Below, one piece after another: positions 41,624-60,699 of a stretch of DNA of 64,000 nucleotides. This DNA comes from Proteiniborus sp. DW1 (GTDB lineage: Bacteria > Bacillota > Clostridia > Tissierellales > Proteiniboraceae): the NCBI RefSeq assembly GCF_900095305.1, contig NZ_FMDO01000007.1:62001-126000 (forward strand), written 5' to 3'. Position 1 is the first letter of the stretch. Each line of letters starts with the position of its first letter. The position numbers and the translations under genes are program-made. The notes beneath the pieces are model-generated. The model was not told where the DNA came from, searched no databases, and saw only the letters and a program-made list of their open reading frames with translations.

Positions 41624-41626
41624 AGA

Positions 41627-41667
41627 AAGCACGACTTTTCATCATTGAGAAGTCGTGCTTTTTTTTT
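41627..41667. terminator. Second, strong terminator after glutamate dehydrogenase
   Basis: AAGCACGACTT and AAGTCGTGCTT, 11-base perfect arms extended by TC/GA, followed by a long T-run. The tandem pair insulates the nicotinate regulator. Confidence 0.9.
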
Positions 41668-41849
41668 GAGAATTATGCTAATTCTCATGTTTATTTGTTG
41701 ATTAAAAACTTTATAATATATGGAACATATGTCGAATTTACACTAACTATTTCGACATTGTTAATATTCTGATATAATATATTTAAATTGACAAATAAAA
41801 TTCATGACTTGTACTATTTTATATAAACATAAGGAGGTTCTAGTTTTAT

Positions 41850-43424
41850 ATGGACAGGATTCCAACAATACTTATAGATTCACTTCCTATTATTGCTAAG
41901 GTTACTTCTGGATATTCGACACTTACTAACAAAAATGGTGAAAGATTAAAGACTGTAGATTCTTCTGGACGCGAAATAGAAGATCTAAAGGGAATATACT
42001 ATGACTTAGCAAAGCAAGCAGCAGATGAACAAAAGCCTATATATGGTATGTCACAGATTGAAACTGGAGCAGAAACCTGGTGTATACCAATAGGGGATTA
42101 TGTATTATGTTGTAGTAATGTTGAGCGGATTAAATATAGTAATGCTCTTAAGCAGTCCTTGATTGATGCTTTACCTTTTATTGCCCGTGTTGCAGGAGGA
42201 GAGGCAGTGGTATTTGACGGCGAAGGTAAAAGATTGGCATCAATTAATTCAAATGGAGAGGTAAACGAAAAGTTTTTAGGAACCATAAGCAAAGATGCGA
42301 ATGAAGCAATGAAAGCACAGAAACCTGTTATTGGTGAATCAAACTATATTAGTGGTGCAAGTGCTGTTAGGATTCCAATGGGTAAGGATTTTGGCTTCGG
42401 ATTTAATAATGAGGACCATATTCAGAAAAACAATAGTTTAATGAATGAAATGAAGAAATATCAAAATGCAAAATATAACTTTTCTGATATTATAGGAAAT
42501 ACTAAAGAAATAGGTAGAGCAAAGGAAATAGCTAATATAGCTGCCCAGTCTAGCTCAAATGTTTTAATCTTTGGTGAAACTGGAACAGGAAAGGAAGTTT
42601 TTGCTCAATCTATTCATAATGCAAGCAATAGGGCTAATAAGCCTTTTGTAGCTATAAACTGCTCTGCCATACCTCAAAATCTTATGGAAAGTAGTTTTTT
42701 TGGATATGAAAGTGGAGCCTTTACGGGAGCAAAAAAAGGTGGTTCTGCTGGAGTTTTCGAACAAGCTAACGGAGGAACGTTATTCCTTGATGAGATTAGT
42801 GAAATGCATCTAGATCTCCAATCAAAGATACTGAGGGTTCTACAGGAAAGGGAAGTAAGGAGAATAGGAAGTGAGAAAGTAATTCATCTGGATATAAGAA
42901 TAATATCTGCTTCTAACAAGGATTTGGACAAGCTAGTCAATGAAGGGAAGTTTAGACAGGACTTATTTTATAGATTAAACGTCCTTGATATACAGCTTCC
43001 TTCATTAAGATATATAAAAGAAGATATTCCGTTACTTGTTAAACATGCAATTAAAAAAATGAATATTATTTTTGGAAGATTTGTGGAAGGTATAGACGAT
43101 GAGGCTTTAGGTACTCTCGTAAATTATAGTTGGCCTGGTAATATTAGAGAGTTGATGAATTGTGTTGAAAAAGCATTTAATATTATTGGTAATGAGAGAA
43201 TAATAAGGGTGAAGCATTTACCTAGAAACATTAAGGAAAGCCTTAATGTTTTAGATGTCAACGATGAGGGGCTTGAAGAAATGCTAAAAAGATATGAGCG
43301 AGAAATAATTCTTAAAGCTCTTAAAATAAATAATGGGATTAAGTCTAAAGCAGCTAATTATCTAAAAATTAGTACAACTACTTTGTGGAGGAAAATAAAT
43401 CAATTGAATATTGAGAATGAATAG
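41850..43424 (+). CDS. Sigma-54-dependent transcriptional activator with duplicated N-terminal domain
   Basis: The 524 residues divide into three parts. Residues about 7-88 and 105-190 are two copies of one domain: LIDSLPIIAKVTSG against LIDALPFIARVAGG, then KNGERLKTVDSSGRE against GEGKRLASINSNGEV, and QKPIYGMSQIETGA against QKPVIGESNYISGA. An AAA+ domain follows with Walker A GETGTGKE and the sigma-54-contacting ESGAFTGAKKGG; the C-terminal Fis-type helix-turn-helix is KSKAANYLKISTTTLWRKI. It has no receiver, PAS or known ligand domain, so the duplicated part is probably the sensor. AAGGAGG precedes the ATG. Its position and the sites at 43427 and 49790 suggest it controls nicotinate degradation. 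Confidence 0.88.
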   Translation: MDRIPTILIDSLPIIAKVTSGYSTLTNKNGERLKTVDSSGREIEDLKGIYYDLAKQAADEQKPIYGMSQIETGAETWCIPIGDYVLCCSNVERIKYSNALKQSLIDALPFIARVAGGEAVVFDGEGKRLASINSNGEVNEKFLGTISKDANEAMKAQKPVIGESNYISGASAVRIPMGKDFGFGFNNEDHIQKNNSLMNEMKKYQNAKYNFSDIIGNTKEIGRAKEIANIAAQSSSNVLIFGETGTGKEVFAQSIHNASNRANKPFVAINCSAIPQNLMESSFFGYESGAFTGAKKGGSAGVFEQANGGTLFLDEISEMHLDLQSKILRVLQEREVRRIGSEKVIHLDIRIISASNKDLDKLVNEGKFRQDLFYRLNVLDIQLPSLRYIKEDIPLLVKHAIKKMNIIFGRFVEGIDDEALGTLVNYSWPGNIRELMNCVEKAFNIIGNERIIRVKHLPRNIKESLNVLDVNDEGLEEMLKRYEREIILKALKINNGIKSKAANYLKISTTTLWRKINQLNIENE

Positions 43425-43426
43425 CG

Positions 43427-43440
43427 TTTCAAAATTGAAA
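43427..43440. promoter_or_regulatory. Candidate activator site (TTTCA-N4-TGAAA), ndhF side, site 1
   Basis: TTTCAAAATTGAAA, two bases after the activator's stop codon and about 265 bases upstream of the sigma-54 promoter. A half-site TTTTGAAA follows at 43453-43460. Confidence 0.5.
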
Positions 43441-43500
43441 TTTGCATTGCGATTTTGAAATACTGATTACTGTTGAATTTGTAAAGCTAGTAGTTTTTTT

Positions 43501-43540
43501 CTGAAAACATTTCAAAAATGAAAATGTTTTCAGAATTTTT
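43501..43540 (+). terminator. Hairpin after activator gene; contains candidate activator site 2
   Basis: CTGAAAACATTTCA pairs with TGAAA(A)TGTTTTCAG, one bulged A, then AATTTTTTTATT. It reads as the activator's terminator. The hairpin centre, 43510-43523, is itself TTTCA-AAAA-TGAAA, the same word as the other sites, so the stretch may do both jobs. Confidence 0.65.
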
Positions 43541-43693
43541 TTATTATTTTACATACAATCCACAATGATTTTTAAAGTTCATTAGTGAGAAAATAAACTT
43601 AAAAGATTATTTGTTAAAAGGTTGTAACAGTAGATGATTATATAGATTGCATAGCTACTTGGAAATAGTTATTTTTTTATCAGTATTTATAAC

Positions 43694-43711
43694 TTGGCAA
43701 GGCTTTTGCAT
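43694..43711 (+). promoter_or_regulatory. Sigma-54 promoter for ndhFSLM
   Basis: TTGGCA at 43694-43699 and TTGCAT at 43706-43711, with GG to GC spacing of exactly 12, matching TTGGCAC-N5-TTGCW apart from one base. It lies about 80 bases before the ndhF start. Confidence 0.85.
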
Positions 43712-43790
43712 AAATACACTATAAGAAATTGCAGCAGCTTAAGAACCAAAATTTGAAATATTCAAGTTAATAATGTGTAGGAGGGATAAG

Positions 43791-44663
43791 ATGAAACAAT
43801 TTTGTTACTATGCTCCATCAACAATTGAGGAAGCAGTAAAGATACTAACGGGAGCAGATGAGAATACTCAAATTATAGCCGGAGGGACTGACTTTATTGT
43901 TCAAATAAATCAAAAGATGATTTCTCCAGAAAAAGTAGTGGATATTAAAAAAATTAAGGAAATGAAGTATGTAAAAGAGGAAAATGGATTCATAAAGATT
44001 GGTGCTGCTACTAATTTTAGTGAACTAGACTGCTCTGAAATATTATTAAGAAAGGCTAAGGCTCTCGCTATAGCTTGTGGAGAAGTTGGCTCTACACAAA
44101 TTAGAAATCTAGGAACTATTGGAGGCAATATAGTAAATGCTTCTGCTGCAGGAGATTCTATAGCCGCTCTTATGGCTCTTGATGCTTCAGTTGTTTTAAA
44201 AAGTGAAAAAGAAGAAAGAGTTATGAAATTAGAAGAATTCTACCAGGGTCCTGGGAACTGCCAAATTAGAAAAGATGAACTATTGACTGAGATATTTTTC
44301 CAAAGTCCTAATGAAAGGACAGCTACAAGTTTTAAAAAGCTAGGAAAAAGAAAAGCTTTAGCTATAGTTGTTATAAGTGCAGGAGCTTTAATCGAAAAGG
44401 ATACTGATAACAAATGTACAAAGGCACAAATTTCATTAGGTGCTATTTCAAGATATCCAATAAGAGTTAGAGAAGCTGAAAAACTATTAATTGGAAAAGA
44501 ATTAAATGAGCAAAATATTGAAGCGTGTTTAGAGAAGTTAGCTGAAATAACAGACATCAGTGTTACCAACTCACCTTTTAAACACTTGGCCCTCTATAAG
44601 AGTTCAGCTATTAAGGGTATTGCAAGAGATATGTTTGCTGATATATTGGCAGATTTAAAATAG
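43791..44663 (+). CDS. ndhF: Nicotinate dehydrogenase FAD subunit
   Basis: 290 residues of the CO-dehydrogenase-type flavoprotein family: N-terminal FAD-binding IIAGGTDFIVQINQ and the middle TIGGNIVNASAAGDSIAALMALDA segment, then the C-terminal CODH_FAD domain. It carries electrons from the iron-sulfur subunit to NADP in the enzyme that hydroxylates nicotinate at C6. ATG 43791 after AGGAGGG is preferred to ATG 43773. It opens the sigma-54-driven operon ndhF-ndhS-ndhL-ndhM, the same four-subunit set as in Eubacterium barkeri. Confidence 0.93.
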   Translation: MKQFCYYAPSTIEEAVKILTGADENTQIIAGGTDFIVQINQKMISPEKVVDIKKIKEMKYVKEENGFIKIGAATNFSELDCSEILLRKAKALAIACGEVGSTQIRNLGTIGGNIVNASAAGDSIAALMALDASVVLKSEKEERVMKLEEFYQGPGNCQIRKDELLTEIFFQSPNERTATSFKKLGKRKALAIVVISAGALIEKDTDNKCTKAQISLGAISRYPIRVREAEKLLIGKELNEQNIEACLEKLAEITDISVTNSPFKHLALYKSSAIKGIARDMFADILADLK

Positions 44664-44693
44664 TATTATCTATCAAAAGAGGAGGTTTATATT

Positions 44694-45158
44694 TTGGAGA
44701 AAATAAAAATATCGTTTAACCTAAATAATGAAGATGTAACTATAGATATAAATCCAAATAAGAGATTAATAGACATGCTTAGAGAGGATTTTAAACTAAC
44801 AAGTGTTAAGGAAGGGTGTTCTGAAGGTGAGTGTGGTGCTTGTACTGTAATAGTAGATAGCTGTGCAGTAACTTCTTGTATTATGCTAGCTCCTCAAGTT
44901 CATGGAAGTACTGTAATTACCCTTGAAGGTTTATCTAAGAATGGCGATTTAGATAAGCTTCAACAGGCATTTATTGATGCTGGTGCTATTCAATGTGGTT
45001 TTTGTACTCCAGGAATGATACTTTCAGCTAAGGCTTTGTTTATGAAAAAATCTAATCCATCAAGAGAAGAGATTAAAAAAGCAATGTCAGGAAATATTTG
45101 TAGATGTACTGGATATAAAAAAATAATTGATGCAGTTGAAATAGCAAGAGATAAATAA
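44694..45158 (+). CDS. ndhS: Nicotinate dehydrogenase small [2Fe-2S] subunit
   Basis: 154 residues in two domains. Residues 1-80 are a plant-type [2Fe-2S] ferredoxin with CSEGECGACTVIVDSCAVTSC. Residues 81-154 are the four-helix domain of xanthine dehydrogenase-type enzymes with CGFCTPGM and GNICRCTGY. The two clusters link the molybdenum site in NdhL/M to FAD in NdhF. The start is TTG 44694, with GAGGAGG nine bases upstream. Confidence 0.95.
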   Translation: MEKIKISFNLNNEDVTIDINPNKRLIDMLREDFKLTSVKEGCSEGECGACTVIVDSCAVTSCIMLAPQVHGSTVITLEGLSKNGDLDKLQQAFIDAGAIQCGFCTPGMILSAKALFMKKSNPSREEIKKAMSGNICRCTGYKKIIDAVEIARDK

Positions 45159-45176
45159 ATGAAAGGAGGAACTAGA

Positions 45177-46451
45177 GTGGACAATTTAAATATAATTGGC
45201 AAGAGCGTTGAAAAAAAAGATTCACTTAGTAAAGCAATAGGTACAGCAATTTTTTCGGCTGATATAGAATTAGATAATATGTTATATGGTTCAGTTAAAA
45301 GAAGTACTGTAGCTTCTGCTATTTTAAAAAATATTGATACTAGTAAAGCAAAGGCGTTGCCAGGAGTTGCTGCTGTACTGACATACAAAGACATACCTGG
45401 AGATAATAGAGTAGGTATCATAATTAAAGATGAACCCATACTAGTTGATGACAAAATTAGAAGAATAGGTGATGCTCTGGCAATAGTTGCTGCTGAGACA
45501 AAAGAAATTGCCGAGGAAGCCTTAGATTTAATAGAAGTAGAATATGAAGAATTAGAAGGAATATTTACTATAGAAGATGCACTAAAAGAAGGGGTACATG
45601 CAATTCATGGAAACTCAAATGTTCTTCAAAATAAGGATTTGATTTTTGGTGATGTAGATGAAGCGTTTAAGCAATGTGATGTAATAGTTGAAGATACTTA
45701 TAAGACAAATTATTTTGCTCACATGTTTATCGAACCTGAGGCTGGTGTTGCCAAGTATGAAAACGGTATTTTAACATTCTGGAGCTCAACTCAGAATCCT
45801 CACTTTGATAGAGGCGAAGTGGCAAGAATGCTTAAACTTCCACAAAGTAAGGTTAGAAGTATTCAAGCTACTACAGGTGGTGGATTTGGAGGAAAGCTTG
45901 ATATATCAGTACAATGCCATGCTGCTTTATTGGCATATTATACTGGTAGACCAGTGAAGTTTGTTAGAAGTAGAGAAGAGTCTATGAAAGTTTCTTCAAA
46001 AAGACACCCTATGACTTTGAAGCTTAAAACAGGAGCAACAAGAGATGGAAAAATTTTAGCTTTAGATGCACATATAACAGGAGATACAGGTGCATACGCA
46101 TCATATGGACCTGCTGTTATAGGTAGAGCAATGACTCACTTAACTGGACCTTATGAGATTCCAAATGTAAGAGTTAAAGCAACTTTTGTATATACTAACA
46201 ACCCAATGGCAGGTGCATTTAGAGGCTTTGGAGTTCCACAAGCAGCTATAGCCCATGAAGGACAAATGGATTTACTTGCCAAAAAGTTAGGAATGGATCC
46301 AATCGAGCTAAGATTAAAGAATGCTCTAAGAGTTGGTTCTGTCACATCTACGGGTCAACTACTAACCGATGGTGTCGGTATAGTTGAGACTATAGAGAAA
46401 GCAGTGGAAAAAGCAAAAGAAGTGATTTTTACTGAAGGAGAGGTGAAATAG
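45177..46451 (+). CDS. ndhL: Nicotinate dehydrogenase large molybdopterin subunit
   Basis: About 424 residues, equal to the first half of the molybdenum subunit of xanthine dehydrogenase: an N-terminal a/b hammerhead domain (GVAAVLTYKDIPGDNRVG), then the first molybdopterin-binding domain with TTGGGFGGKLD, YTGRPVKFVRSREESM and GAFRGFGVPQA. The protein stops where other family members continue; ndhM supplies the rest. GTG 45177 is chosen, eight bases after AAAGGAGG; the ATG at 45159 lies before that site. The stop is two bases from the ndhM start. Confidence 0.93.
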   Translation: MDNLNIIGKSVEKKDSLSKAIGTAIFSADIELDNMLYGSVKRSTVASAILKNIDTSKAKALPGVAAVLTYKDIPGDNRVGIIIKDEPILVDDKIRRIGDALAIVAAETKEIAEEALDLIEVEYEELEGIFTIEDALKEGVHAIHGNSNVLQNKDLIFGDVDEAFKQCDVIVEDTYKTNYFAHMFIEPEAGVAKYENGILTFWSSTQNPHFDRGEVARMLKLPQSKVRSIQATTGGGFGGKLDISVQCHAALLAYYTGRPVKFVRSREESMKVSSKRHPMTLKLKTGATRDGKILALDAHITGDTGAYASYGPAVIGRAMTHLTGPYEIPNVRVKATFVYTNNPMAGAFRGFGVPQAAIAHEGQMDLLAKKLGMDPIELRLKNALRVGSVTSTGQLLTDGVGIVETIEKAVEKAKEVIFTEGEVK

Positions 46452-46452
46452 G

Positions 46453-47436
46453 ATGAAGAAAAGAGGAGTCGGAGTAGGATGTATGTGGTATGGAATAGGA
46501 AATACAGGATTACCAAATCCTGCTGCAGCCTTTGTAGAAGTACATGGAGATGGCTCTGTGACAGCTTTAGTTGGTTGTGCAGATATAGGACAAGGCTCTT
46601 CAACAGTAATGGCGCAAATTGTCGCTGAGACATTGGGAGTTAACTATGAAGATGTGAATGTGACTGCTGCTGATACAGGAGTGACACCAGAAGGTGGAGC
46701 TACTTCAGCAAGTAGACAAACATACATTTCTGGTAATGCGTGTCTTGCGGCAGCTAAAATGGCAAAAAAAACCTTAATAGAGGTAGCTGCTGAAGTTCTT
46801 GGTGTAGATGAGGAACTAGTCAACATTAAGAATAAAAAAGTAATAGTTACAAATGATGAATCAAAGCAAATGGATTTCTCTGTTCTTATGGATGAGATGA
46901 AGAAGAGAGGTAAGATTGCACTTGGAAGCGGTTCATTTAACCCTGATACAACAGCTCTAGATCCCGTTAACATGCAAGGTATACCATATGCTTGCTATGC
47001 ATATGCAACAAATATTGTAGAGGTAGAAGTAGATACAGAAACAGGAGAAGTACAAGTGTTAAAGGTAGTAGCTGCACACGACGTTGGACAGACTATTAAT
47101 GAAAAAATGGCTGAGGGACAAATAGAAGGTGGAGCTGCCATGGGAATGGGACTTGCTTTACTAGAAAAGGTTGAAGTAGAAAAAGGAGTTATTAAAAATC
47201 CAGGTTTTTCAAAGTATTTAGTTTATACAGCTGCGGATATGCCAGAAATATATCCAATACTTGTAGAAGATCCTACATTAACTGGGCCTTATGGTGCAAA
47301 GGGATTAGGAGAACCTGCTCTAATACCTGTAATACCAGCAATCTTAAATGCTATTTATGATGCTATTGGAGTTAGGTTTACTGAAGTTCCTGTAACACCT
47401 GAAGCAATAATAGAGGCATTAAAAAACAAAAACTAA
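46453..47436 (+). CDS. ndhM: Nicotinate dehydrogenase medium molybdopterin subunit
   Basis: 327 residues equal to the C-terminal half of a xanthine dehydrogenase molybdenum subunit: GCADIGQGSSTVMAQI, TPEGGATSASRQTYISG, and the active-site glutamate in GPYGAKGLGEPALIPV near residue 290. With NdhL it forms the catalytic site for C6 hydroxylation. The E. barkeri enzyme also has this split and contains labile selenium; its insertion factors are not seen in this window. AGAGGTG lies inside the end of ndhL, so the two are probably translated in a coupled way. Confidence 0.93.
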   Translation: MKKRGVGVGCMWYGIGNTGLPNPAAAFVEVHGDGSVTALVGCADIGQGSSTVMAQIVAETLGVNYEDVNVTAADTGVTPEGGATSASRQTYISGNACLAAAKMAKKTLIEVAAEVLGVDEELVNIKNKKVIVTNDESKQMDFSVLMDEMKKRGKIALGSGSFNPDTTALDPVNMQGIPYACYAYATNIVEVEVDTETGEVQVLKVVAAHDVGQTINEKMAEGQIEGGAAMGMGLALLEKVEVEKGVIKNPGFSKYLVYTAADMPEIYPILVEDPTLTGPYGAKGLGEPALIPVIPAILNAIYDAIGVRFTEVPVTPEAIIEALKNKN

Positions 47437-48515: not shown

Positions 48516-48575
48516 TCAGTAAAAGCTTTAAATATTGTCTATAAAATTTGGGATAATTTGGTTAGGAATGTTTTT

Positions 48576-48609
48576 GCCACTAGCAGAGTAGAGATACTCT
48601 ACTAGTGGC
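48576..48609 (+). terminator. Strong intergenic hairpin after the PfoR-like gene
   Basis: GCCACTAG-AGAGTA and TACTCT-CTAGTGGC pair with one C/A mismatch around GAGA. No T-run follows, so it may be a processing or partial-termination element rather than a full terminator. Confidence 0.55.
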
Positions 48610-48649
48610 TATGTTAATTATATTAGAGTACTTGAATGAGGGGGCCTAG

Positions 48650-49732: not shown

Positions 49733-49789
49733 TTGATGGTTAATATTTTTAGATATATGGTTTTTTATCTTAAATTTCAATAATATGAA

Positions 49790-49803
49790 TTTCAAAATTG
49801 AAT
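49790..49803. promoter_or_regulatory. Candidate activator site, hgd side, site 3
   Basis: TTTCA-AAAT-TGAAT, one base from the 43427 site, centred about 142 bases upstream of the -24 element. A one-mismatch TTACA-AATA-TGAAA copy follows at 49809-49822. Confidence 0.5.
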
Positions 49804-49873
49804 ATGCATTACAAATATGAAATGCTGTTTAATAAGACTATTGTAATAAGTACAGGATTGAACCAAAATAGCA

Positions 49874-49887
49874 TTTCAAAAATGAAA
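49874..49887. promoter_or_regulatory. Candidate activator site, hgd side, site 4
   Basis: TTTCA-AAAA-TGAAA inside GCATTTCAAAAATGAAATATGC, about 55 bases upstream of the -24 element; identical to the word in the hairpin at 43510. Confidence 0.55.
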
Positions 49888-49936
49888 TATGCAATTAAAA
49901 ATATTGCTATTCTCCCCAATTTTTAAGGGAAAAAAG

Positions 49937-49954
49937 TTGGCACAATAATTGCTA
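49937..49954 (+). promoter_or_regulatory. Sigma-54 promoter for hgd operon
   Basis: TTGGCAC at 49937-49943, five bases, TTGCTA at 49949-49954: a full match to TTGGCAC-N5-TTGCW with 12-base GG to GC spacing. It lies about 65 bases before hgd. Confidence 0.92.
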
Positions 49955-50018: not shown

Positions 50019-50915
50019 ATGAAAATAGGTTTTATTGGCTTAGGGGTCATGGGGAAAAGAATGGCTGCTAATGTACTTAAGAGTGGCTACCAGCTTATAG
50101 TATCTGACCTAAATAATGATGCAGTAAAAGAATTGGTAGAGATGGGTGCAGAGGAAGGACAGACTCCTGCTGAAGTTGCAAAGGATGCAGATATTGTACT
50201 TACATCGCTTCCGAACTCTGCTATTGTAGAAAATGTTGTTTTAGGAGAAAATGGGATTCTAGAAGGTGCTAAAGAAGGAGCAGTAATAGTTGATTTAAGT
50301 AGTATAACACCAAAATCAATACAAAATATTGCTGAAAAAGCTAATCATAAAGGTGTAGAAGTTTTAGATGCTCCTGTAAGCGGTGGAGCAGCAGGTGCAG
50401 AAAAGGGCACTCTTACAATTATGGTTGGAGGAAATAAAGAGTCCTTTGAAAAGGCTCTCCCTGTATTAAATTGTATAGGAACTAAAGTATATCATGTTGG
50501 TGAAGTTGGTGCAGGAGATACAGTAAAGCTAGTGAATAATCTTCTACTAGGAGCTAATATGGTAGCAGTTGCTGAGGCTTTAGCTTTAGGAGTTAAGGCA
50601 GGTCTTAAACCAGATGTTTTATACGACATAATTAGTCAAAGCTCAGGTGCTTCATATGCATTAACGGCAAAATATAAAAACTTTATAGCTAAAGGTAATT
50701 TTGAACCAGGATTTATGATTGATTTGCAGTATAAAGATCTACAGCTTGCGGTAGATACTGCTAAGGATTTAAAGATGCCATTAATTATAGGAAACTTATC
50801 ACAGCAAATGTTTGAAGCTGCAAGAGCAAAAGGATTAGGAGCTGAAGATATCTCAGCTGTATTAAAGTTATATGAAGATTGGGGAAATATAGAAGTAAGA
50901 GAGGAGCGGGCTTAG
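50019..50915 (+). CDS. hgd: 2-(Hydroxymethyl)glutarate dehydrogenase
   Basis: 298 residues of the beta-hydroxyacid dehydrogenase family: NAD(P)-binding GFIGLGVMGKRMAANVLKSG, substrate-binding DAPVSGGAAGAEKGTLTIMVGG, and the catalytic lysine in GDTVKLVNN near residue 170. By family alone it could be tartronate semialdehyde or hydroxyisobutyrate dehydrogenase; position in a complete nicotinate cluster makes reduction of 2-formylglutarate to 2-(hydroxymethyl)glutarate by far the best call. ACAGGAGG precedes the ATG. It is the first gene of the second operon, and hmd starts two bases after its stop. Confidence 0.92.
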   Translation: MKIGFIGLGVMGKRMAANVLKSGYQLIVSDLNNDAVKELVEMGAEEGQTPAEVAKDADIVLTSLPNSAIVENVVLGENGILEGAKEGAVIVDLSSITPKSIQNIAEKANHKGVEVLDAPVSGGAAGAEKGTLTIMVGGNKESFEKALPVLNCIGTKVYHVGEVGAGDTVKLVNNLLLGANMVAVAEALALGVKAGLKPDVLYDIISQSSGASYALTAKYKNFIAKGNFEPGFMIDLQYKDLQLAVDTAKDLKMPLIIGNLSQQMFEAARAKGLGAEDISAVLKLYEDWGNIEVREERA

Positions 50916-50917
50916 CT

Positions 50918-52324
50918 ATGGAACTTAAGGCTATGATTAATGAAAGAATGCCATTGACTCTTGGAGACATAGTAGAAATTGCAGGTAAAATAGATGTAAG
51001 GTTTGTTGATGTAATTCTAGCTGAAGCGGAAATTCAGACAGGAAAAAATAGAGAAGAAGTGCTAGAAGAAGCGCTAAAAGAGTTTGAACATAATTTACAG
51101 GCAATAGAGCTGGGCCTAACTACAGGAAGCAGCTTACTTCTTGGTACAACTGGTTCAGAGCTAAATAATATGGAAGGTTTCAGACTATTTCAAGATGAAT
51201 TTGTAGACAAAGCTCTGGTATACACAATAGCTGCTCAAGTAGGAAATCATGGTATAGGACTAAATCCATGCGCAGGTACTGGAGATTCTTGTCCTTACAC
51301 AGGTTTTATTAAAGCAATGCTTGAAATTGGATATGAAAAAAGTAGGGTAGCAGAAATAGCTGCAATAATATTAAAAGTAGGTTCAATGTTTAGGGTGGGC
51401 AAGACAACTACTGGATGTAATATGGAAGGATTTGGTGCAGGCTCTGCAGCTATAGCAGCAGCAACAGTTGAGTTGTGTGGGGGTAGTGCAAAGGATGTAG
51501 AACGTGCAATGGTAATAGCGATATCCCCAACCATAGGCGTTCCATGTACCCCTAGAGTTATGGTTCCTGCACTATGTGCGACTCATATAGGAGGAGCTAT
51601 ATTAAATGGTATATTATCGGCTAAACTAGCTGTTAAAACAAGCATAGAAGTAAATGTGCCTATAGATGTAATGTTAGCTATGGCAGCTGAAATTCACCCA
51701 ATATCAGCTAAATCTTTAGTGCCTACAGTAGTAGAGTTTATGCAACCATTCTTTAAGACTAAAGAACCTGTGGAAAGATTGATAGATCAGAAAATTAAAG
51801 ATGAAGAGAAGGTTCATATAGAACAAACATTAGTTAAAGCTAAAGAAATAGCTAAGAGGTTGGCTAAAGGTGCTAAACCTATTACAAATACTTTAGGAGA
51901 AGCAGTTGTTGGAGGAAGTAGTCAAGCTGTTGGTTCACCAACAAATACGGGAAGAATCGCACACTTTTTATCAAAAGGAAAAATAAATAAAGTAAAAATC
52001 GAACTTTATCCCGAATTATTTGCACGTAGGGGAATAAATGTTCCAGGTGTGTTAATGGGAGCAGTATATGGCTCATCAACTGCAGATGGAAAAATGTATA
52101 AGGAAGTAATGGAATTAGTAGAGAAAGAAGGAATAGCAGTAGAAATAGTTAAAGTGGATGAGTATCAAGTTCAAAGAGTTACAATTGTAACTGATGAAGG
52201 AACATTCATGGTAGATGCATTAAATAGAGGTGGAGGAAGGCTGGTTCTTCGTGATGCTACACCTTCAAAACAGGAAGCTGTTAATATAGCTAATAAATTA
52301 GGTATAGTGCTAGTTGAAGCGTAG
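50918..52324 (+). CDS. hmd: 2-(Hydroxymethyl)glutarate dehydratase (serine dehydratase-like, iron-sulfur)
   Basis: 468 residues related to iron-sulfur L-serine dehydratases, with both halves in one chain. The alpha-like region has NPCAGTGDSCPYTGF, GKTTTGCNMEGFGAGSAA and PTIGVPCTPRVM, whose cysteines are probable [4Fe-4S] ligands; the beta-like region follows (GGSSQAVGSPTNTGRIAHFL). It would remove water from 2-(hydroxymethyl)glutarate to give 2-methyleneglutarate. True serine dehydratase is the alternative, but the place between hgd and dmdA decides. ATG 50918 follows GAGGAGCGG and gives the natural N-terminus MELKAMINERMPL. Confidence 0.87.
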   Translation: MELKAMINERMPLTLGDIVEIAGKIDVRFVDVILAEAEIQTGKNREEVLEEALKEFEHNLQAIELGLTTGSSLLLGTTGSELNNMEGFRLFQDEFVDKALVYTIAAQVGNHGIGLNPCAGTGDSCPYTGFIKAMLEIGYEKSRVAEIAAIILKVGSMFRVGKTTTGCNMEGFGAGSAAIAAATVELCGGSAKDVERAMVIAISPTIGVPCTPRVMVPALCATHIGGAILNGILSAKLAVKTSIEVNVPIDVMLAMAAEIHPISAKSLVPTVVEFMQPFFKTKEPVERLIDQKIKDEEKVHIEQTLVKAKEIAKRLAKGAKPITNTLGEAVVGGSSQAVGSPTNTGRIAHFLSKGKINKVKIELYPELFARRGINVPGVLMGAVYGSSTADGKMYKEVMELVEKEGIAVEIVKVDEYQVQRVTIVTDEGTFMVDALNRGGGRLVLRDATPSKQEAVNIANKLGIVLVEA

Positions 52325-52340
52325 AAAGAAGGTGAAATAA

Positions 52341-53546
52341 TTGAACATTATAGAAAGAATTATCGCAAAAAAGGCTAATAAGGAAAGTGTTAGGGTTGGA
52401 GAGGAGCTAAGTGTGAAAATCGATTTAGCAATAGCTCATGATGTTACTGGTCCTTTAGCAATAGAGCAATTTTTAAAAATAGGATGTAATGAGGTATTTG
52501 ATAAGGACAAAGTTGTATTTGTAATGGATCATAACATTCCTTGTTCATCAGTTGATTCTAGAATTCAACATAGGACAATACATGAGTTTTGTGATAGATT
52601 TGGCGCTAAAATGTACAAGAGAGCTGAAGGGGTTATCCATCAGGTCGTACATGAAGAAGGCCTATATAAAAAAGGAGATATAATTGTAGGAGCTGATTCT
52701 CATACTTGTACAGCAGGAGCTTTTGGAGCAGTGGCTATACCACTAGGTTCAACTGAGCTTGCAGCAGTTATGGCTTTAGGAGAACTTGACTTAGAAGTAC
52801 CAGAAACTTATCTGATTAATATTGATGGAAAATTAAATCCTGGTGTTTATGGAAAAGATATTATCTTATATATAATAGGCAGGTTTGGGACAAATGGATT
52901 TACAGATAAAGCAGTTATTATTAGTGGAAGTACAATATTGGGACTAAGCAATGATGATAAGATGACAATCTCCAATATGATGATAGAAATGGGTGCTATG
53001 ATTGGTTTTATAGACCAAGGAGACGAAGAAATTGGTAAAGTAAAGGTTGTGTATAATATAAATGCAGCTAATATTCCTCCTGTGGTCGCTTGTCCTTCAT
53101 CACCAGGAAATGTAAGGGCCATTAAGGAAATAGAAGGGATAAAGATAAATCAAGCAGTTATCGGAAGCTGTACAAATGGTAGACTGTCAGATATGAGAAT
53201 AGCTGCTGAAGTATTAAAGGGTAGAAAGATTGCCCATGGAGTAAATATGGTAATAGTTCCAGCTTCAAAGAGAATCTTAGATAAAATGGAAGAAGAAGGG
53301 CTAACAAAGATATTTAGAGAAGCAGGAGCAATAGTTACTAATCCTGGATGTGGACCATGCTTTGGGGCACATCAAGGGCTACTATCAAAAGATGATGTAG
53401 CCATATCTTCAACAAATAGAAATTTCCCAGGAAGAATGGGACATAAGGAAGCAAAGATTTATTTAGCTTCTCCTAGAACAGTTGCAGAAAGTGCTATAAG
53501 AGGATGTATTACATGTCCTGGCACAGTAATTCCATTGGAGGGGTAG
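52341..53546 (+). CDS. dmdA: 2,3-Dimethylmalate dehydratase large subunit
   Basis: 401 residues of the aconitase/LeuC family, without the C-terminal swivel domain. Family motifs include MDHNIPCSSVDSRIQHR and GADSHTCTAGAFGA. The three cluster cysteines lie in GSCTNGRLSDM and NPGCGPCFGAH. It hydrates dimethylmaleate to (2R,3S)-2,3-dimethylmalate together with DmdB. On family alone it could be isopropylmalate isomerase or homoaconitase, but no leucine genes are near and the flanking genes form the nicotinate pathway. The start is TTG 52341 with AAGGTGA upstream. Confidence 0.9.
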   Translation: MNIIERIIAKKANKESVRVGEELSVKIDLAIAHDVTGPLAIEQFLKIGCNEVFDKDKVVFVMDHNIPCSSVDSRIQHRTIHEFCDRFGAKMYKRAEGVIHQVVHEEGLYKKGDIIVGADSHTCTAGAFGAVAIPLGSTELAAVMALGELDLEVPETYLINIDGKLNPGVYGKDIILYIIGRFGTNGFTDKAVIISGSTILGLSNDDKMTISNMMIEMGAMIGFIDQGDEEIGKVKVVYNINAANIPPVVACPSSPGNVRAIKEIEGIKINQAVIGSCTNGRLSDMRIAAEVLKGRKIAHGVNMVIVPASKRILDKMEEEGLTKIFREAGAIVTNPGCGPCFGAHQGLLSKDDVAISSTNRNFPGRMGHKEAKIYLASPRTVAESAIRGCITCPGTVIPLEG

Positions 53547-53551
53547 TTAGA

Positions 53552-54070
53552 ATGGACAAGATAAAAGGAAAAGCATTTATGCTTGATGAAAATGTCGATA
53601 CAGATCAAATACTTCCTGGATATGCCATGAGCTATCCAGTAGAAGAATTGAAAAAGGTCACACTAAAAGGAAGTATAATTCCAGATTTCCCAGAGAGAGT
53701 TAAACCAGGGGACATAATAATAGCTGATCATAACTTTGGATGTGGTTCTAGCAGAGAACAGGCACCTGTAGCACTAAAAAGCTCTGGAGTAGGAATAATC
53801 ATAGCTAAATCATTTGCAAGAATCTTTAGGAGGAATGCGATAAATATCGGACTTCCAGTAGTGACTTGTGAGTATATAAGGGAAATTAGAAAAGAAGCAA
53901 AAGAAAATGATGAGTTTGAAGTAGATTTAATTAAAGGCACAATAACTAACTTGAGAACACAAAATCAGTACAAATTAAATCAACTCTCTGAAACCACACT
54001 TGAAACACTAAAAGCAGGTGGACTGATTAATAAAGTTAGACAAAAACTTATGAAAAGGGGTGCTATCTAA
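53552..54070 (+). CDS. dmdB: 2,3-Dimethylmalate dehydratase small subunit
   Basis: 172 residues of the LeuD-type swivel domain: [39 protein letters not shown] and [16 protein letters not shown]. It completes the active site of DmdA. ATG 53552 after GGAGGGG is the likely start; an in-frame ATG at 53504 lies inside dmdA. Its stop overlaps the mgm start as TAATG, showing tight coupling. Confidence 0.92.
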
Positions 54071-55929
54071 TGGCTAAATTGAGACCAAATACAGAAAGAA
54101 TTATTAGAGAAGACATAGATAGAATAAAGGCGTACGAAAAAGCTTTCGGTGTTAAGATGCCATATATAGATGAAAACGGAGAAATACAGGGACTACCTGA
54201 TGCTTATCCAAGAGAGGTTAATGGTGTAGTTCGCAGTGGTTACAGATTAACAGAACTTGGTAGACAAGCTGTTAAAACAGGCAACCCTGTATTAAACCCT
54301 ATACTTGGAAGAAATAGCTCTGAGGAAACATACAAAGAATCACAACACATGTATGATATGGCTGAAAAGCTTGGCGTTACAATATTTCAGTTTGTACATT
54401 CTGAGGCAACAAGGCATATTGATCCCCTTGATGGAATAGAGCTAATAGAACAATCTAGAGGTAAAGGTGGAATCACACCAGCTGGAGAAAGAGAATTCGT
54501 TCAAATGGGCGGAGGTTCGAAACACCCAATAAGAATAAATGCTACTGGTGATACTACTCACTTAAATGTGTTAAATGCATTAATAGCTGGATTTGATGGT
54601 ACAGATTTAGGTCCAGTTATACACGTTCACTTTGGTGGGAGAGGAATCCATGACTTTAGAACAAAGGTAGTAAATGGATTCAAGGCAATCCAAATATGTG
54701 CAGAAAACAACATATTTGTTCAGCTTGATACACATAAGCATATTAACAATATAATGGGTACAGATGGAATGGCTTTAGCGATGGTTCTATTATCTGAGGG
54801 ACTAGCAGTAAAAGCAGGATTGGATAGAGCCTTAAGTGCTATTCAAATGAATGTAGGTGGGATTAACTTACTTGCAGATTTGGCTTTAGTAAAGGCATTT
54901 AGAGAGACTATCTGGAGTGAATTTATTATAGCAGTACCAGAAACCTTCCAAAACCCACCAGCAGATCTTATTGCAGAACAAGCTCATTTTGCTAGAATGG
55001 CAGTCTCAGCTAAATTAGCAGGAGCAAACTTCTATAGACCAAAGGCTGCAGAAAATGTAGGTATTCCAACTGGTGAATCAATGGCTAAGGCAATGTGGGC
55101 TACACAAAATGTATTTGAGGGAACATATAAAGTGGATATTCAGGATCCATTTATAGACCAAAGAAAAGAAGAAATAAAGGCTGAAGCAATGGCGGTATTA
55201 ACAGCTGCATTAAAAAGAGATAAAATGCTAAGACCAGAAGAGGTAAATGCAGAATTCTGGGCTCAATATGATGAACATGAGCTTATTGACCTAATAGTAG
55301 AGGCTGGTAGAAGTGGTATATTAGATACCCCAAGAGCAGGAGGTTGGGATCTAAAGAGATTTGTTAAGACAAATAGAGACAAAGATGGTATCAGAAGGTA
55401 TATAGCAGGCTATACTCCACTAGGAGTAGATGAAAAGTATATGCCTATTACTAAAGAAAATGTAGAAGTTCAAAAAGAAACTCCAATAACAAAAAAAGAA
55501 AAAGTAGTTTTAGCAACTGTAGGTGCAGATGCCCACGTAGTTGGAATCAATATGGTAAAAGAGGCAATACAAAAAGCAGGATACGAAGTAATATTCCTAA
55601 GGGGAATGAATCTACCAGAAACAGTAGCTGAAGTTGCAGCTGAAACTAAGGCAAGTGTTGTTGGAGTAAGTAACTTATTAGGACTTGGAATAACCTTATT
55701 CCCTAGAGTAGCTAAAAGACTTGAAGAACTTGGGCTAAGAGATGATGTAGTACTTCTAGCTGGCGGTAGAATTGCAGAAAAAGAAGAAGAACATGCTATG
55801 TATGAGAAAAAAATCAAAGAAGAGGGAACAGGTTTCCTTGGAGTTGATAACTTCTTTGGACCAGGAACAGACCTTGATGAATGTGTTAAATGGATAGAAG
55901 AACAGTTAAATAAAAAGAAAGGTAAATAA
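54070..55929 (+). CDS. mgm: 2-Methyleneglutarate mutase (adenosylcobalamin-dependent)
   Basis: 619 residues, close to the E. barkeri enzyme. A substrate barrel of about 470 residues is followed by a C-terminal B12-binding domain with [14 protein letters not shown] (cobalt-ligand histidine near residue 488), [10 protein letters not shown] and VLLAGGR, the DxHxxG-SxL-GG pattern of base-off mutases. It rearranges 2-methyleneglutarate to (R)-3-methylitaconate by a radical carbon shift. Only glutamate-type family members share this single-chain layout. B12 synthesis genes are absent from the window; a likely reactivase is encoded at 57113. Confidence 0.96.
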
Positions 55930-55955
55930 ATTTTTAGCAGTGAGGAGGCACAAAT

Positions 55956-57104
55956 ATGGAACAGATTAAAACACCTGTTGTTATTATGAGAGCTGGTACA
56001 AGTAAGGGAATCTTTATTAAAGAAGAAAATTTACCTAAAGACCCAAAAGAAAGAGATGAACTTATATTAAAAATATTTGGAAGCCCAGACATCAGGCAAA
56101 TTGATGGCTTAGGTGGGGCAGATCCATTAACTAGCAAACTAGCTATTATAGGACCATCTACAAGAGAAGATGCAGATGTTGACTACACATTTGGACAAGT
56201 ATCTTATGTAGCACCAAAAATAGATTATTCAGGAAATTGTGGAAATATCTCTGCAGGCGTTGGACCATTTGCAGTAGATGAAGGGCTTGTAAAGGTTGAG
56301 GAACCTTTCACAACTGTAAGAGTACACAATACCAATACAGGTAAATTAATAATTGAAAGAGTTGAAGTTGTAAATGGTAAGGCTAAAGTAACAGGAGACT
56401 ATAGCATAGCTGGAGTTCCTGGAACAGGCTCAGAGATAGTAATTGACTTTTCAGATACAGCTGGGGCAGCAACTGGAAAGCTTCTGCCTACAGGCAATGT
56501 AATAGATAAAATAGATGTAACAGGATATGGTGAGATAGAAGCTTCTTTAGTAGATGCAGCAAATCCTGTTGTATTTGTGAGAGCAAAAGATTTGGGCTTA
56601 ACAGGTATTGAGACACCATCACAAATAGATGAAAATAAAGCGATGTTAGCTACCCTTGAGGAAATAAGAGGAAAGGCTGCTGTTATGATGGGATTAGTAA
56701 AGGATTGGAAAAATGCAGTTAAAGAAGCTCCTGCATTTCCAATGATAGCATTTATTTCTCCAGCCCAAGACTATGTTGATTTTACAAAAGGTAAAGAAAT
56801 AAGCGAAAATGATGTGGACTTTGTTTCAAGACTTATGTTTATGCAAGTTGTTCACAAAACTTATGCTGGCACAGCAACTATCTGTACTGGAGCAGCTGCG
56901 AGAATAGAAGGTACAATAGTAAACGAAGCAATGAATGCAAAGGGCAAAGGCAAGAATGAAATTCTTAGAATAGGTCATCCAGCTGGAGTAATAACAATAG
57001 AAGTTGCTGCTAGCAAAGTGGATAATTGCTGGAAACTTGAAAAAGCTGCAATAAACAGAACTGCAAGGAGAATCATGGATGGCAACTGTTATACAGTAAA
57101 ATAA
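55956..57104 (+). CDS. mii: 3-Methylitaconate delta-isomerase
   Basis: 382 residues of the PrpF / diaminopimelate epimerase fold: VVIMRAGTSKGIFI at the start, GLGGADPLTSKLAIIG, and DYSGNCGNISAGVGPFAVDEG. Lys61 and Cys95 match, within one residue, the Lys62 and Cys96 I recall from the E. barkeri enzyme. It moves the double bond of (R)-3-methylitaconate to give dimethylmaleate. GAGGAGG precedes the ATG, 26 bases after mgm. PrpF or aconitate isomerase is the family alternative; neighbours settle it. Confidence 0.95.
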   Translation: MEQIKTPVVIMRAGTSKGIFIKEENLPKDPKERDELILKIFGSPDIRQIDGLGGADPLTSKLAIIGPSTREDADVDYTFGQVSYVAPKIDYSGNCGNISAGVGPFAVDEGLVKVEEPFTTVRVHNTNTGKLIIERVEVVNGKAKVTGDYSIAGVPGTGSEIVIDFSDTAGAATGKLLPTGNVIDKIDVTGYGEIEASLVDAANPVVFVRAKDLGLTGIETPSQIDENKAMLATLEEIRGKAAVMMGLVKDWKNAVKEAPAFPMIAFISPAQDYVDFTKGKEISENDVDFVSRLMFMQVVHKTYAGTATICTGAAARIEGTIVNEAMNAKGKGKNEILRIGHPAGVITIEVAASKVDNCWKLEKAAINRTARRIMDGNCYTVK

Positions 57105-57112
57105 GGGATGGA

Positions 57113-58534
57113 ATGAAAATGCAAAAGTACGATTATTTAATTATAGACATAGGAAGTACTTACACAAAGCAAAGGCTGTTTAAAGACTTTGAATTAGTGG
57201 CGACTGTTCAGTCGCCTACTACAGTGGAAAATGTTTATAAAGGAATAAAAGCTGGACAGGACATTATAAAGACAACATTAAGTGAGAGTAAAATAGAATC
57301 GGAACATGTTTTAGCTTCTAGTAGTGCAGCAGGTGGACTAAGAATGGTAGCCATGGGATATATGACTAGAGTTACTGCAAAGGCAGCAAAAGAGGTAGCT
57401 ATGAACTCAGGTTCTAAAATACTGGAGATAGTCTCTAATGAAAATCTACCAGAATACAGAATACAGATTTTAAAGGAAATAAATCCAGATATCATACTTT
57501 TAGCTGGTGGAACTGATTTTGGAGATGAATCTTCACTTATAGAAAATGCACATTTAATAGTAGAAAGTAAAGTCAAAGGTGTAGTAATTATAGCTGGTAA
57601 TATAAGTGCCCAGGCTGAGGCTGCTCAAATATTAAAGGCTGGAAATGTGGCTCATTTAAGAGTTCCAAATATAATGCCCACTATTCATAAGCTAAGAGTA
57701 AAGGAAGCTAGAGAAGCCATTCATAAAGAATTCATTAAACAAATTACTAAAGCACAGGGGTTGAGTATATTACAAGAAGAGATTACTAATGATAAAATCA
57801 TACCTACTCCTGGAGCAGTTTTAATGGCATCTGAGTTACTAGCTAAAGGAACTTATTTAGAAAAAGGAATAGGTGAAATAATCGTAGTTGATTTAGGAGG
57901 AGCAACTACTGATATTCACTCAGTAATACCTGGCTATGCTAATCTAGAGGATGAAGAAATCGGTCTTATTGTAAGCAATGAAAAACAGATATCCTATAGA
58001 ACCGTTGAAGGTAATTTAGGTATGCGTATTAGTGCTATGGGGGTTATAGATGTAGTAAGTCCTAAAGCTATCTTCCACAAAAGAGGAATTAAAGATGAGA
58101 AGTTACTAGAAGAGTTTATTCAGTATTGTATGGAGGTAGAAAGGACGCCTAGGCATATAGCGCAGAACGAAAAGGAATATATGTTTGACACACTTATTGC
58201 AGAAACAGCCGTTGAAGTAGCTTTGAAAAGGCATGCAGGATTTATCTCTACAGTTGCCGACCCCATAACGGGTCTTATGCCAGGAATGCCAGTGGGTAGA
58301 GATTTGAGAAATGTGAACACTATAATCGGCGTTGGAGGGATTTTTTCCCATAGGGATGTTTCAGAAGGAAAAGAGATAATAAGAAATGCATTAAAAGATA
58401 AAGGCATTTCGCTCTTACCAAATGATCCGAAAATAATAATTGATGAAAACTATATATTATATACTGGCGGGCTTATATCTCAGATTGATGAAGATTATGC
58501 ATTTAAGGTACTAAAGAATAGTTTTAAATTATAA
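57113..58534 (+). CDS. MutL/GlmL-type protein, probable reactivase for the B12 mutase
   Basis: 473 residues of the MutL family of ASKHA ATPases (unrelated to mismatch repair MutL). The N-terminal phosphate loop is IIDIGSTYTKQRLF, LLAGGTDFG lies near 130, and the second nucleotide site is VVDLGGATTDIHSV near 260. In glutamate fermenters glmL sits between glmS and glmE and is thought to replace damaged B12 cofactor on the mutase. Here it lies two genes after mgm, which suggests the same service for methyleneglutarate mutase. AGGGATGG lies before ATG 57113; ATG 57119 is also possible. Confidence 0.87.
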   Translation: MKMQKYDYLIIDIGSTYTKQRLFKDFELVATVQSPTTVENVYKGIKAGQDIIKTTLSESKIESEHVLASSSAAGGLRMVAMGYMTRVTAKAAKEVAMNSGSKILEIVSNENLPEYRIQILKEINPDIILLAGGTDFGDESSLIENAHLIVESKVKGVVIIAGNISAQAEAAQILKAGNVAHLRVPNIMPTIHKLRVKEAREAIHKEFIKQITKAQGLSILQEEITNDKIIPTPGAVLMASELLAKGTYLEKGIGEIIVVDLGGATTDIHSVIPGYANLEDEEIGLIVSNEKQISYRTVEGNLGMRISAMGVIDVVSPKAIFHKRGIKDEKLLEEFIQYCMEVERTPRHIAQNEKEYMFDTLIAETAVEVALKRHAGFISTVADPITGLMPGMPVGRDLRNVNTIIGVGGIFSHRDVSEGKEIIRNALKDKGISLLPNDPKIIIDENYILYTGGLISQIDEDYAFKVLKNSFKL

Positions 58535-58551
58535 TACTTGGAGGTAACAGC

Positions 58552-59418
58552 ATGAAAAAAACTACAATATTAAGACAATTACTAAATTCTAAGGAAATAC
58601 TAGTAGCTCCAGGAGCACATGATGCATTAACAGCAAGAGTTATAGAAAAATCAGGATTCAAAGCAATATACATGACAGGATATGGACAAGCAGCTAGCGT
58701 GTTAGGTAAGCCAGACATTGGCTTATTAAGTATGACTGAAATGTTAGATAGAGCTAGAAAATTTGCAAGTGCAGTAAATATACCGGTTATAGCAGATGGA
58801 GATACTGGATTTGGTAATGCCATAACAGTAATGAGAACTGTAGAAGAATATGAAGCAGCAGGGGTTGCAGCTATTCAACTTGAAGATCAGGTTGCACCTA
58901 AAAGATGTGGACATATGCTTGGAAGAAAAGTAGTAAGCCTAGATGAAATGGTTGGTAAAATAAAAGCAGCTGTAGCAGCTAGAAAAGATCCAGATTTCGT
59001 CATAATAGCTCGTACAGATGCACGTACTATTCATGGAATTGACGAAGCAATAAGAAGAGCGAAGGCTTACGAAGAAGCTGGTGCTGATGTAATATTTGTA
59101 GAATCAGTTGAAAGTATAGAGGAAATGAAAAGAGTAAATGAAGAAATCAAGGTTCCTACATTAGCTAACATGGTTGAAGGTGGTAGAACTCCACTTTTAT
59201 TAAATAAGGAGCTAGAAGATATAGGGTATAGTCTAGTTATTTACCCAACAGCATCAACATACGTAACTGCAAAAGCTATGTTTGATCTAATGGAAGCACT
59301 AAAATTAAATGGAACTACTGCAAAAAGTATTGACAAGATGATAACATTCTCAGATTTTAATGATTTAGTAGGATTGGGAAATTATGCAGAGCTTGAAGAC
59401 AAATATGTAAGGGAATAG
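58552..59418 (+). CDS. dml: 2,3-Dimethylmalate lyase
   Basis: 288 residues of the isocitrate lyase / PEP mutase family: APGAHDALTARVIEKSGFKAI, PVIADGDTGFGNA, the loop KRCGHMLGRKVV with the catalytic cysteine, and IIARTDART. It splits (2R,3S)-2,3-dimethylmalate to propionate and pyruvate, the last step of the pathway. 2-Methylisocitrate lyase (PrpB) is the closest alternative, but no methylcitrate cycle genes are present. GGAGG precedes the ATG. A 97-base gap to ena follows without an obvious promoter. Confidence 0.93.
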   Translation: MKKTTILRQLLNSKEILVAPGAHDALTARVIEKSGFKAIYMTGYGQAASVLGKPDIGLLSMTEMLDRARKFASAVNIPVIADGDTGFGNAITVMRTVEEYEAAGVAAIQLEDQVAPKRCGHMLGRKVVSLDEMVGKIKAAVAARKDPDFVIIARTDARTIHGIDEAIRRAKAYEEAGADVIFVESVESIEEMKRVNEEIKVPTLANMVEGGRTPLLLNKELEDIGYSLVIYPTASTYVTAKAMFDLMEALKLNGTTAKSIDKMITFSDFNDLVGLGNYAELEDKYVRE

Positions 59419-59515
59419 CAATAGATTCTTTAGTTATTAACCTGAGCTTAGTTCAGTAGAGCATTATGATCTTGCCCTCACTGGATTTTAGTTAAAATAA
59501 AGGGAGGTAGTTATA

Positions 59516-60676
59516 ATGTCAAGATTAGGTATTAAAAATATTGGAATTTTAGTGACAGGAGATGTAAAAAATCCTATTTCAAATGCAACCACAATTATAG
59601 TAGAAGATGGTAAAATTCTAAAAATAGGAGATGAAAGACTCTTAGATGAATTTAGATGTGACAAAATAGTAGATGCGAAAGGAACAACTGTAGCACCTGG
59701 CTTTATTGATTCACATGTTCATCCTGTATTAGGAGACTTTACACCTAGACAAAGTACAATTGGGTTTATAAATAGCTCTTTACATGGTGGAGTAACTACA
59801 ATGATTTCAGCAGGAGAAGCTCATACTCCTGGTAGACCAAAGGACCCAGCAGGAACTAAGGCGTTAGCTATATTAGGACATAAAAGCTCAAAAAATGCAA
59901 GACCAGGAGGAGTAAAGCTTCATGGTGGGGCCTTAATTCTTGAAAAAGGATTAGTTGAAAAAGACTTTGAAGAACTTGCAAAAGAAGGTGTTTGGTTAGT
60001 AGGAGAAGTAGGTCTTGGCTCAGTGAATAGTCCTGATTTAGCAGCACCAATGGTAAAGTGGGCTAAGAAAAATGGCTTTAAAGTTATGATGCACACAGGT
60101 GGAACTTCAATTCCTGGAAGTAGCACTATAACAGCAGATGATGTTATAAAAACAGACCCAGACGTGGTTTCACATATAAATGGTGGGCCTACTGCAATAG
60201 CACCAGAAGAAGTTGACAAAATAATTGAAAACACTAATATGGCTTTAGAACTTGTACAATGTGGAAACTATAAGGTAATGAAACATACTGTTAATATGGT
60301 GAAAGCAAGAGGTCAATTAGAGAGACTTATTGTTGGAAACGACTCTCCATCAGGTTCAGGTATAATACCTCTAGGCATTTTAAGAACTATGTCATATGTA
60401 GCTTCAGAAACAGATGCCACAGCTGCAGAAGCTATTTGCTTTGCAACAGGTAATACAGCTAAGGTTTATGGATTAAATGTTGGATTTATAGAAGAAGGAA
60501 GAGAAGCAGATTTTGTAATCATGGATGCACCATTAGGTTCAATAGGTGAAGATTCCTTAAAGGCTTTAGAAGCAGGAGACATTCCAGGAGTATCAATGGT
60601 AATAATAGATGGAGAAGTAATGTTTATAAAGAGCAAAAATACACCACCTGCAACTCATAGTGCAGTTATCTGTTAA
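59516..60676 (+). CDS. ena: Enamidase (6-oxotetrahydronicotinate hydrolase)
   Basis: 386 residues of the amidohydrolase superfamily: metal ligands His67 and His69 in GFIDSHVHP, a likely bridging glutamate in LVGEVGLGS, MMHTGGTSIPG, SHINGGPTA, and the catalytic aspartate in VGNDSPSGSG. It opens 1,4,5,6-tetrahydro-6-oxonicotinate to 2-formylglutarate and ammonia. The E. barkeri enzyme is a binuclear metal hydrolase of the same length. AAAGGGAGG precedes the ATG; hnr follows 23 bases later. Confidence 0.95.
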   Translation: MSRLGIKNIGILVTGDVKNPISNATTIIVEDGKILKIGDERLLDEFRCDKIVDAKGTTVAPGFIDSHVHPVLGDFTPRQSTIGFINSSLHGGVTTMISAGEAHTPGRPKDPAGTKALAILGHKSSKNARPGGVKLHGGALILEKGLVEKDFEELAKEGVWLVGEVGLGSVNSPDLAAPMVKWAKKNGFKVMMHTGGTSIPGSSTITADDVIKTDPDVVSHINGGPTAIAPEEVDKIIENTNMALELVQCGNYKVMKHTVNMVKARGQLERLIVGNDSPSGSGIIPLGILRTMSYVASETDATAAEAICFATGNTAKVYGLNVGFIEEGREADFVIMDAPLGSIGEDSLKALEAGDIPGVSMVIIDGEVMFIKSKNTPPATHSAVIC

Positions 60677-60699
60677 GCAAGAAAGGAGAAAAATAGTCT

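Follow-up and report, generated by a model that had tools for sequence, protein, structure and literature searches.

How is a pathway switched on when its genes are divided between two operons, and do the two operons answer to the same regulator? The question is raised by a stretch of 64 kb from Proteiniborus sp. DW1, hereafter the window, in which an anaerobic nicotinate fermentation cluster is present. Our analysis suggests that a dedicated activator encoded within the cluster very probably drives both operons, through sigma-54 promoters preceded by three-site arrays of a palindromic element.

The nicotinate cluster and its activator gene

The host genome is 3.1 Mb in size and contains one copy of rpoN. 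The activator gene, both operons, both promoters, all six sites and the hairpin discussed below lie on the forward strand. The cluster genes are named after the E. barkeri nicotinate pathway and by their conserved order, which is shared, among other relatives, by Sedimentibacter acidaminivorans (L055) and a MAG (L017). The first operon opens with ndhF-ndhS-ndhL-ndhM (43773..47436), assigned from Pfam and NCBIfam matches and from the clusters of relatives as the subunits of nicotinate hydroxylase. Its molybdenum subunit is encoded by two ORFs (ndhL and ndhM, 45159-47436) and is split likewise in related clusters. PTS_EIIC_2-like and EutH-like membrane proteins follow ndhM in the same operon (47460-49732); both are candidate nicotinate transporters, and the PTS_EIIC_2-like protein is kept in most related clusters. 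The second operon (50019..62217) begins with hgd at 50019 and continues with hmd, dmdA, dmdB, mgm, mii, a GlmL-like gene, dml, ena and hnr. The first-pass annotation regarded the two operons as two halves of the pathway, a division that the gene content does not bear out: the ndh operon carries nicotinate hydroxylase, step 1, together with the membrane proteins, and the hgd operon carries nearly all remaining steps, including hnr and ena for steps 2-3.

Between the glutamate dehydrogenase gene gdh (40313-41572) and ndhF lies a gene for a sigma-54 enhancer-binding activator of 524 aa (41850..43424), recognized by Pfam and NCBIfam matches, alignment and models. The protein combines a tandem PAS-like sensor (residues 1-190), an AAA+ domain with GAFTGA and Walker A/B motifs, and a Fis-type HTH (HTH_8). 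The sensor consists of two repeats modelled at high confidence (pLDDT 92.8). Its residues match no Pfam family, and a PDB sequence search with the domain returned nothing significant; in Foldseek, the model matches PAS/Cache-type sensors (MmoS, the N-terminal region of DhaR, dCache receptors) at low TM-scores of ~0.25-0.36. The best NCBIfam match of the whole protein, PrdR (NF041552), falls short of that family with 396 bits against a cut-off of 795, and spans residues 192-519 only, that is, the AAA+ and HTH domains. Nine strong sigma-54 activator domains are encoded in the host genome, hence other activators exist besides this one.

The activator gene could be expressed from a sigma-70-like promoter, TTGACA-18-TACTAT at 41788-41817, a match not above chance frequency. 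Autoregulation was considered and rejected, the best upstream site scoring only 8.7 and itself lying inside a terminator loop. Between gdh and the activator gene, a strong terminator hairpin at 41625-41665 presents the degenerate word TTTCATCATTGAGA in its loop, with no array. Two activator homologues in nicotinate-type clusters (L034:7674-9248 and L061:7990-9348) have kept the sensor and HTH and lost GAFTGA, that of L061 being also devoid of the AAA+ lid; any action through sigma-54 has therefore probably been given up.

Equivalent three-site arrays at the two operon heads

Upstream of hgd, the first-pass annotation had reported two palindromic words, a third copy with one mismatch and a sigma-54 promoter, and each was recovered in place: TTTCAAAATTGAAT at 49790, TTACAAATATGAAA at 49809 with the one mismatch, TTTCAAAAATGAAA at 49874, and TTGGCACAATAATTGCTA at 49937-49954. 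The last of the words is, as had been noted, identical to the 14-mer at 43510-43523. Alignment of sites from related loci defines the unit as a 20-bp palindrome, GCATTTCA-N4-TGAAATGC. The hgd array thus comprises S1 (GAATTTCAAAATTGAATATG, 49787..49806), S2 (GCATTACAAATATGAAATGC, 49806..49825) and S3 (GCATTTCAAAAATGAAATAT, 49871..49890). The promoter that follows, assigned by sequence match, is one of four perfect TTGGCAYRN4TTGCW matches genome-wide.

The ndhF side holds two more words besides that at 43510, at 43427-43440 and 43447-43460 (2 mismatches). Its array is formed by S1 (GCGTTTCAAAATTGAAATTT, 43424..43443, directly after the activator stop codon), S2 (GCATTGCGATTTTGAAATAC, 43444..43463) and S3 (ACATTTCAAAAATGAAAATG, 43507..43526, at the apex of a hairpin), ahead of a sigma-54 promoter, TTGGCAAGGCTTTTGCA at 43694..43710, that is conserved in L055, L177 and L178. 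Promoter assignment at the operon heads follows the TTGGCAY-N5-TTGCW type, with GG and GC 12 bp apart. Since ndhF has S1 and S2 too, the two arrays are equivalent; the idea of matching signals at both heads was sound, although it had overlooked ndhF S1 and S2 and the hairpin at 43510. The shared 14-mer, for its part, is not the best evidence for a regulon, since at 43510 it doubles as the apex of a terminator. That role falls to the whole three-site array.

In this layout, S1 and S2 are 19-22 bp apart, S3 follows S2 at ~64 bp, and S3 of hgd stands ~67 bp ahead of the sigma-54 box. The site centres fall at about -168, -149 and -84 relative to the inferred hgd start, and at about -288, -268 and -205 relative to the inferred ndhF start. 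A further sigma-54-like match, at 58185, falls within glmL with one G of the GG missing; it was regarded as chance. A hairpin rich in G+C was also sought between S3 and the promoter and proved not to be consistent.

Conservation of the array and its association with the activator

The array recurs in Sedimentibacter, Tepidanaerobacter, Dethiosulfatibacter, Tissierellales, Sporomusa, Desulfosporosinus and several MAGs. In a hand-curated table, some entries of which are near-duplicate or closely related genomes, the S1-S2 spacing is 19-22 bp in 34 of 35 arrays and the S2-S3 spacing 62-66 bp in 25 of 40 (range 53-94). The distance from S3 to the sigma-54 box is 65-69 bp in 15 of 35, the others being mostly longer, up to 220. 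Helical phasing of the off-mode S2-S3 distances was not significant (Rayleigh p 0.24).

Over the 249 genomes of the order, a strict pattern found ten nicotinate places, spread over five genomes, and five other places, the latter with no nicotinate gene within the surrounding 3 kb; the reversed-pattern control gave three matches. A full-length activator orthologue is encoded in six genomes of the order (G000, G155, G156, G161, G162 and G008). These are the five genomes with strict-pattern nicotinate places plus G156, whose arrays were detected by PWM (L177).

On a wider scale, the N-terminal domain of the activator is encoded in 26 of 38 genomes with hmd-type clusters, and at least two sites stand beside the gene in 23 of the 28 loci that have this domain. 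No arrays were found in the examined cluster DNA of six cluster genomes devoid of it (E. barkeri, E. aggregans, Acetobacterium bakii, a Pseudoflavonifractor, an Oscillibacter and a Dysosmobacter). In some activator-bearing genomes (L049, L050, L052-L054, L062, L064 and L079), arrays adjoin the activator gene but are missing from the cluster proper.

Two cases separate the activator from the pathway. In L175 (2748-6489), an activator of 47% identity is oriented divergently to an operon with HpaB-family and pyruvate:ferredoxin-oxidoreductase-like genes, with array spacings of 19/64/67; the activator family is therefore not confined to nicotinate clusters. The Tissierellales genome G161 has a third array (L139:12091-13667) ahead of a permease of the cytosine/purine type (PF02133) that might transport nicotinate. 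In L051 (18493-19569), an array and a sigma-54 box precede a gene for a soluble chemotaxis-receptor-like protein, hinting that chemotaxis belongs to the regulon there.

Many dimeric regulators could use palindromes like these, and the sites might be bound by another protein, for example a repressor, while the activator uses other, unseen sites. Such an arrangement would fit the exceptional L059, where an array is present and no activator was found. We nevertheless consider it improbable, for the array precedes a sigma-54 box by a distance suited to an enhancer, adjoins the activator gene in most genomes and accompanies the activator to an unrelated operon in L175. No other regulator gene is common to the related loci, a weak argument given that the queries were window genes only.

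A site nested in a terminator-like hairpin

Behind the activator gene, an intrinsic-terminator-like hairpin (43499..43542) contains S3 of the ndhF array. It was detected through repeats and folding (MFE -15.5 kcal/mol), the stem at 43499-43535 being absent from the terminator-scan list. Perfect arms of 14 bp (43499-43512 and 43522-43535), followed by TTTTTTT, place the 43510 word at the apex, and the hairpin stands where the activator gene should terminate. The S3 copy of hgd is not a terminator.

The nesting recurs in relatives, with clear terminators at S3 in L018, L019, L178, L202 and L206 and a hairpin without a T run in L177. An automated rule that required a stem plus a T run flagged S3 as a terminator in 8 of 23 cases behind activator genes and in 1 of 12 other cases. 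Since it under-called, in part through pairing of T tracts into the stem, hairpin energy was compared. By this measure, 12 of the 23 arrays directly after the activator gene have their S3 within a hairpin of -14 kcal/mol or stronger, against 0 of 12 elsewhere (Fisher p 0.002, an optimistic value given the related genomes and a cut set once the energies were known).

The 43510 word could then be a terminator and nothing else, leaving ndhF without a true S3 and the match to 49874 a coincidence. The perfect arms and T7 of the hairpin speak for this, as does the similar loop word of the array-less terminator at 41625-41665. We hold it to be very improbable, since S3 of relatives keeps its 62-66 bp from S2, terminator or not, and the S3 core is kept while the surrounding stem changes.

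The simplest reading of the nesting is economy of space within one intergenic gap. Regulatory coupling of terminator and S3 is possible. In its strongest form, terminator and enhancer would be one functional element, where activator bound at S3 would alter termination or read-through behind its own gene and transcription across the site would displace it, resulting in a feedback switch; this we find rather unlikely. A search of the literature on terminator-embedded enhancers found nothing relevant. An operator inside a terminator would be an unusual case of a single sequence with DNA and RNA roles.

Specificity of the array

The window yields 7 occurrences of TTTCANNNNTGAAW, compared with an expectation of 0.91, and this number was attained in 0 of 100 shuffles. 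The bare 14-mer is weakly enriched genome-wide (37 forward matches vs 25 for the reversed-pattern control) and is by itself unspecific. A genome-wide pattern search placed the array, as two words with a 66-78 bp gap, at two places only, the ndhF and hgd promoters, with 0 for the control. None of the other sigma-54 boxes of the host genome has a site word close upstream, and no arrays occurred in 200 Markov-simulated windows.

Genome-wide searches were made by pattern, and the PWM scan covered the window. With training that excluded the window, or also L055, the six sites occupy ranks 1-6 across the 64 kb: S2 and S3 of hgd rank 1 and 2, S1 (score 20.4), S2 and S3 of ndhF rank 3, 4 and 5, and S1 of hgd, the weakest of the six, rank 6 with a score of 11.7-12.0, barely above the next background position at 11.1-11.5. 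The site words and the array at hgd and ndhF are real and above chance. Chance matches in AT-rich DNA, suggested by the modest genome-wide enrichment of the bare 14-mer, are scarcely credible for an array confined to these two promoters in the genome, placed at the top by a PWM whose training sites came from other genomes, and preserved in many genera; they were already refuted at the sequence level by the genome pattern search, the Markov windows and the PWM ranks.

A proposed mechanism

The co-occurrence of array and activator, the conserved geometry and the uniqueness of the array in the genome strongly support the proposal that the ndhF and hgd heads form one regulon under one sigma-54 activator. 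The presence of the same array and a second sigma-54 promoter at ndhFSLM would make both operons one small regulon. Against this reading stand the array of L059, the genomes whose arrays are found beside the activator gene alone, and the further activators encoded in the host genome.

From sequence comparison, we infer activator binding, the inducer, a hexamer on three sites, looping and the co-induction of the operons as follows. Nicotinate or an intermediate is probably recognized by the tandem PAS-like domain at the N-terminus of the activator. Activator dimers would occupy the three sites, the close pair S1/S2 and S3 ~64 bp nearer the promoter, and the sites would seed an AAA+ hexamer. The hexamer would loop to sigma-54 RNA polymerase at 49937-49954, where ATP hydrolysis would open the promoter and allow transcription of the hgd operon. 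An array of the same type, with its S3 apparently built into the activator-gene terminator, would drive ndhFSLM from the second promoter.

Comparison with known systems

The Eubacterium barkeri cluster (L028) contains homologous pathway genes. Its regulation probably differs, as there is neither a sensor-domain match in the genome nor an array in the 14 kb examined. We found no regulator for the nicotinate fermentation pathway in the open-access literature, and the layout of a three-site array with a sigma-54 promoter is apparently previously undescribed for this pathway. The anaerobic nicotinate (vitamin B3) pathway would gain a candidate dedicated regulator, a motif and a promoter set across Bacillota.

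Clostridial sigma-54 activator regulons have been assembled into 39 groups, including PrdR (PMC6615313), and Table 1 of that compilation names no nicotinate target among them. As described there, these regulons resemble the present one in that the activator gene adjoins its target operon, multiple sites lie upstream and the promoter consensus is TTGGCATN5TTGCT. PrdR-type motifs, described as TGT-N10-12-ACA, differ from TTTCA-N4-TGAAA here.

A precedent for the layout is offered by the norVW enhancer of E. coli, where three essential NorR sites scaffold the oligomer (PMC2941729). Three putative dimer sites upstream of a sigma-54 promoter are likewise found here, whereas NorR has a GAF sensor in place of tandem PAS-like repeats, and motif and spacing also differ. 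All three NorR sites being essential, the three sites described here may by analogy play a part in oligomer assembly. Their conserved geometry would make it possible to test, by altered spacings, how an enhancer layout seeds an activator hexamer.
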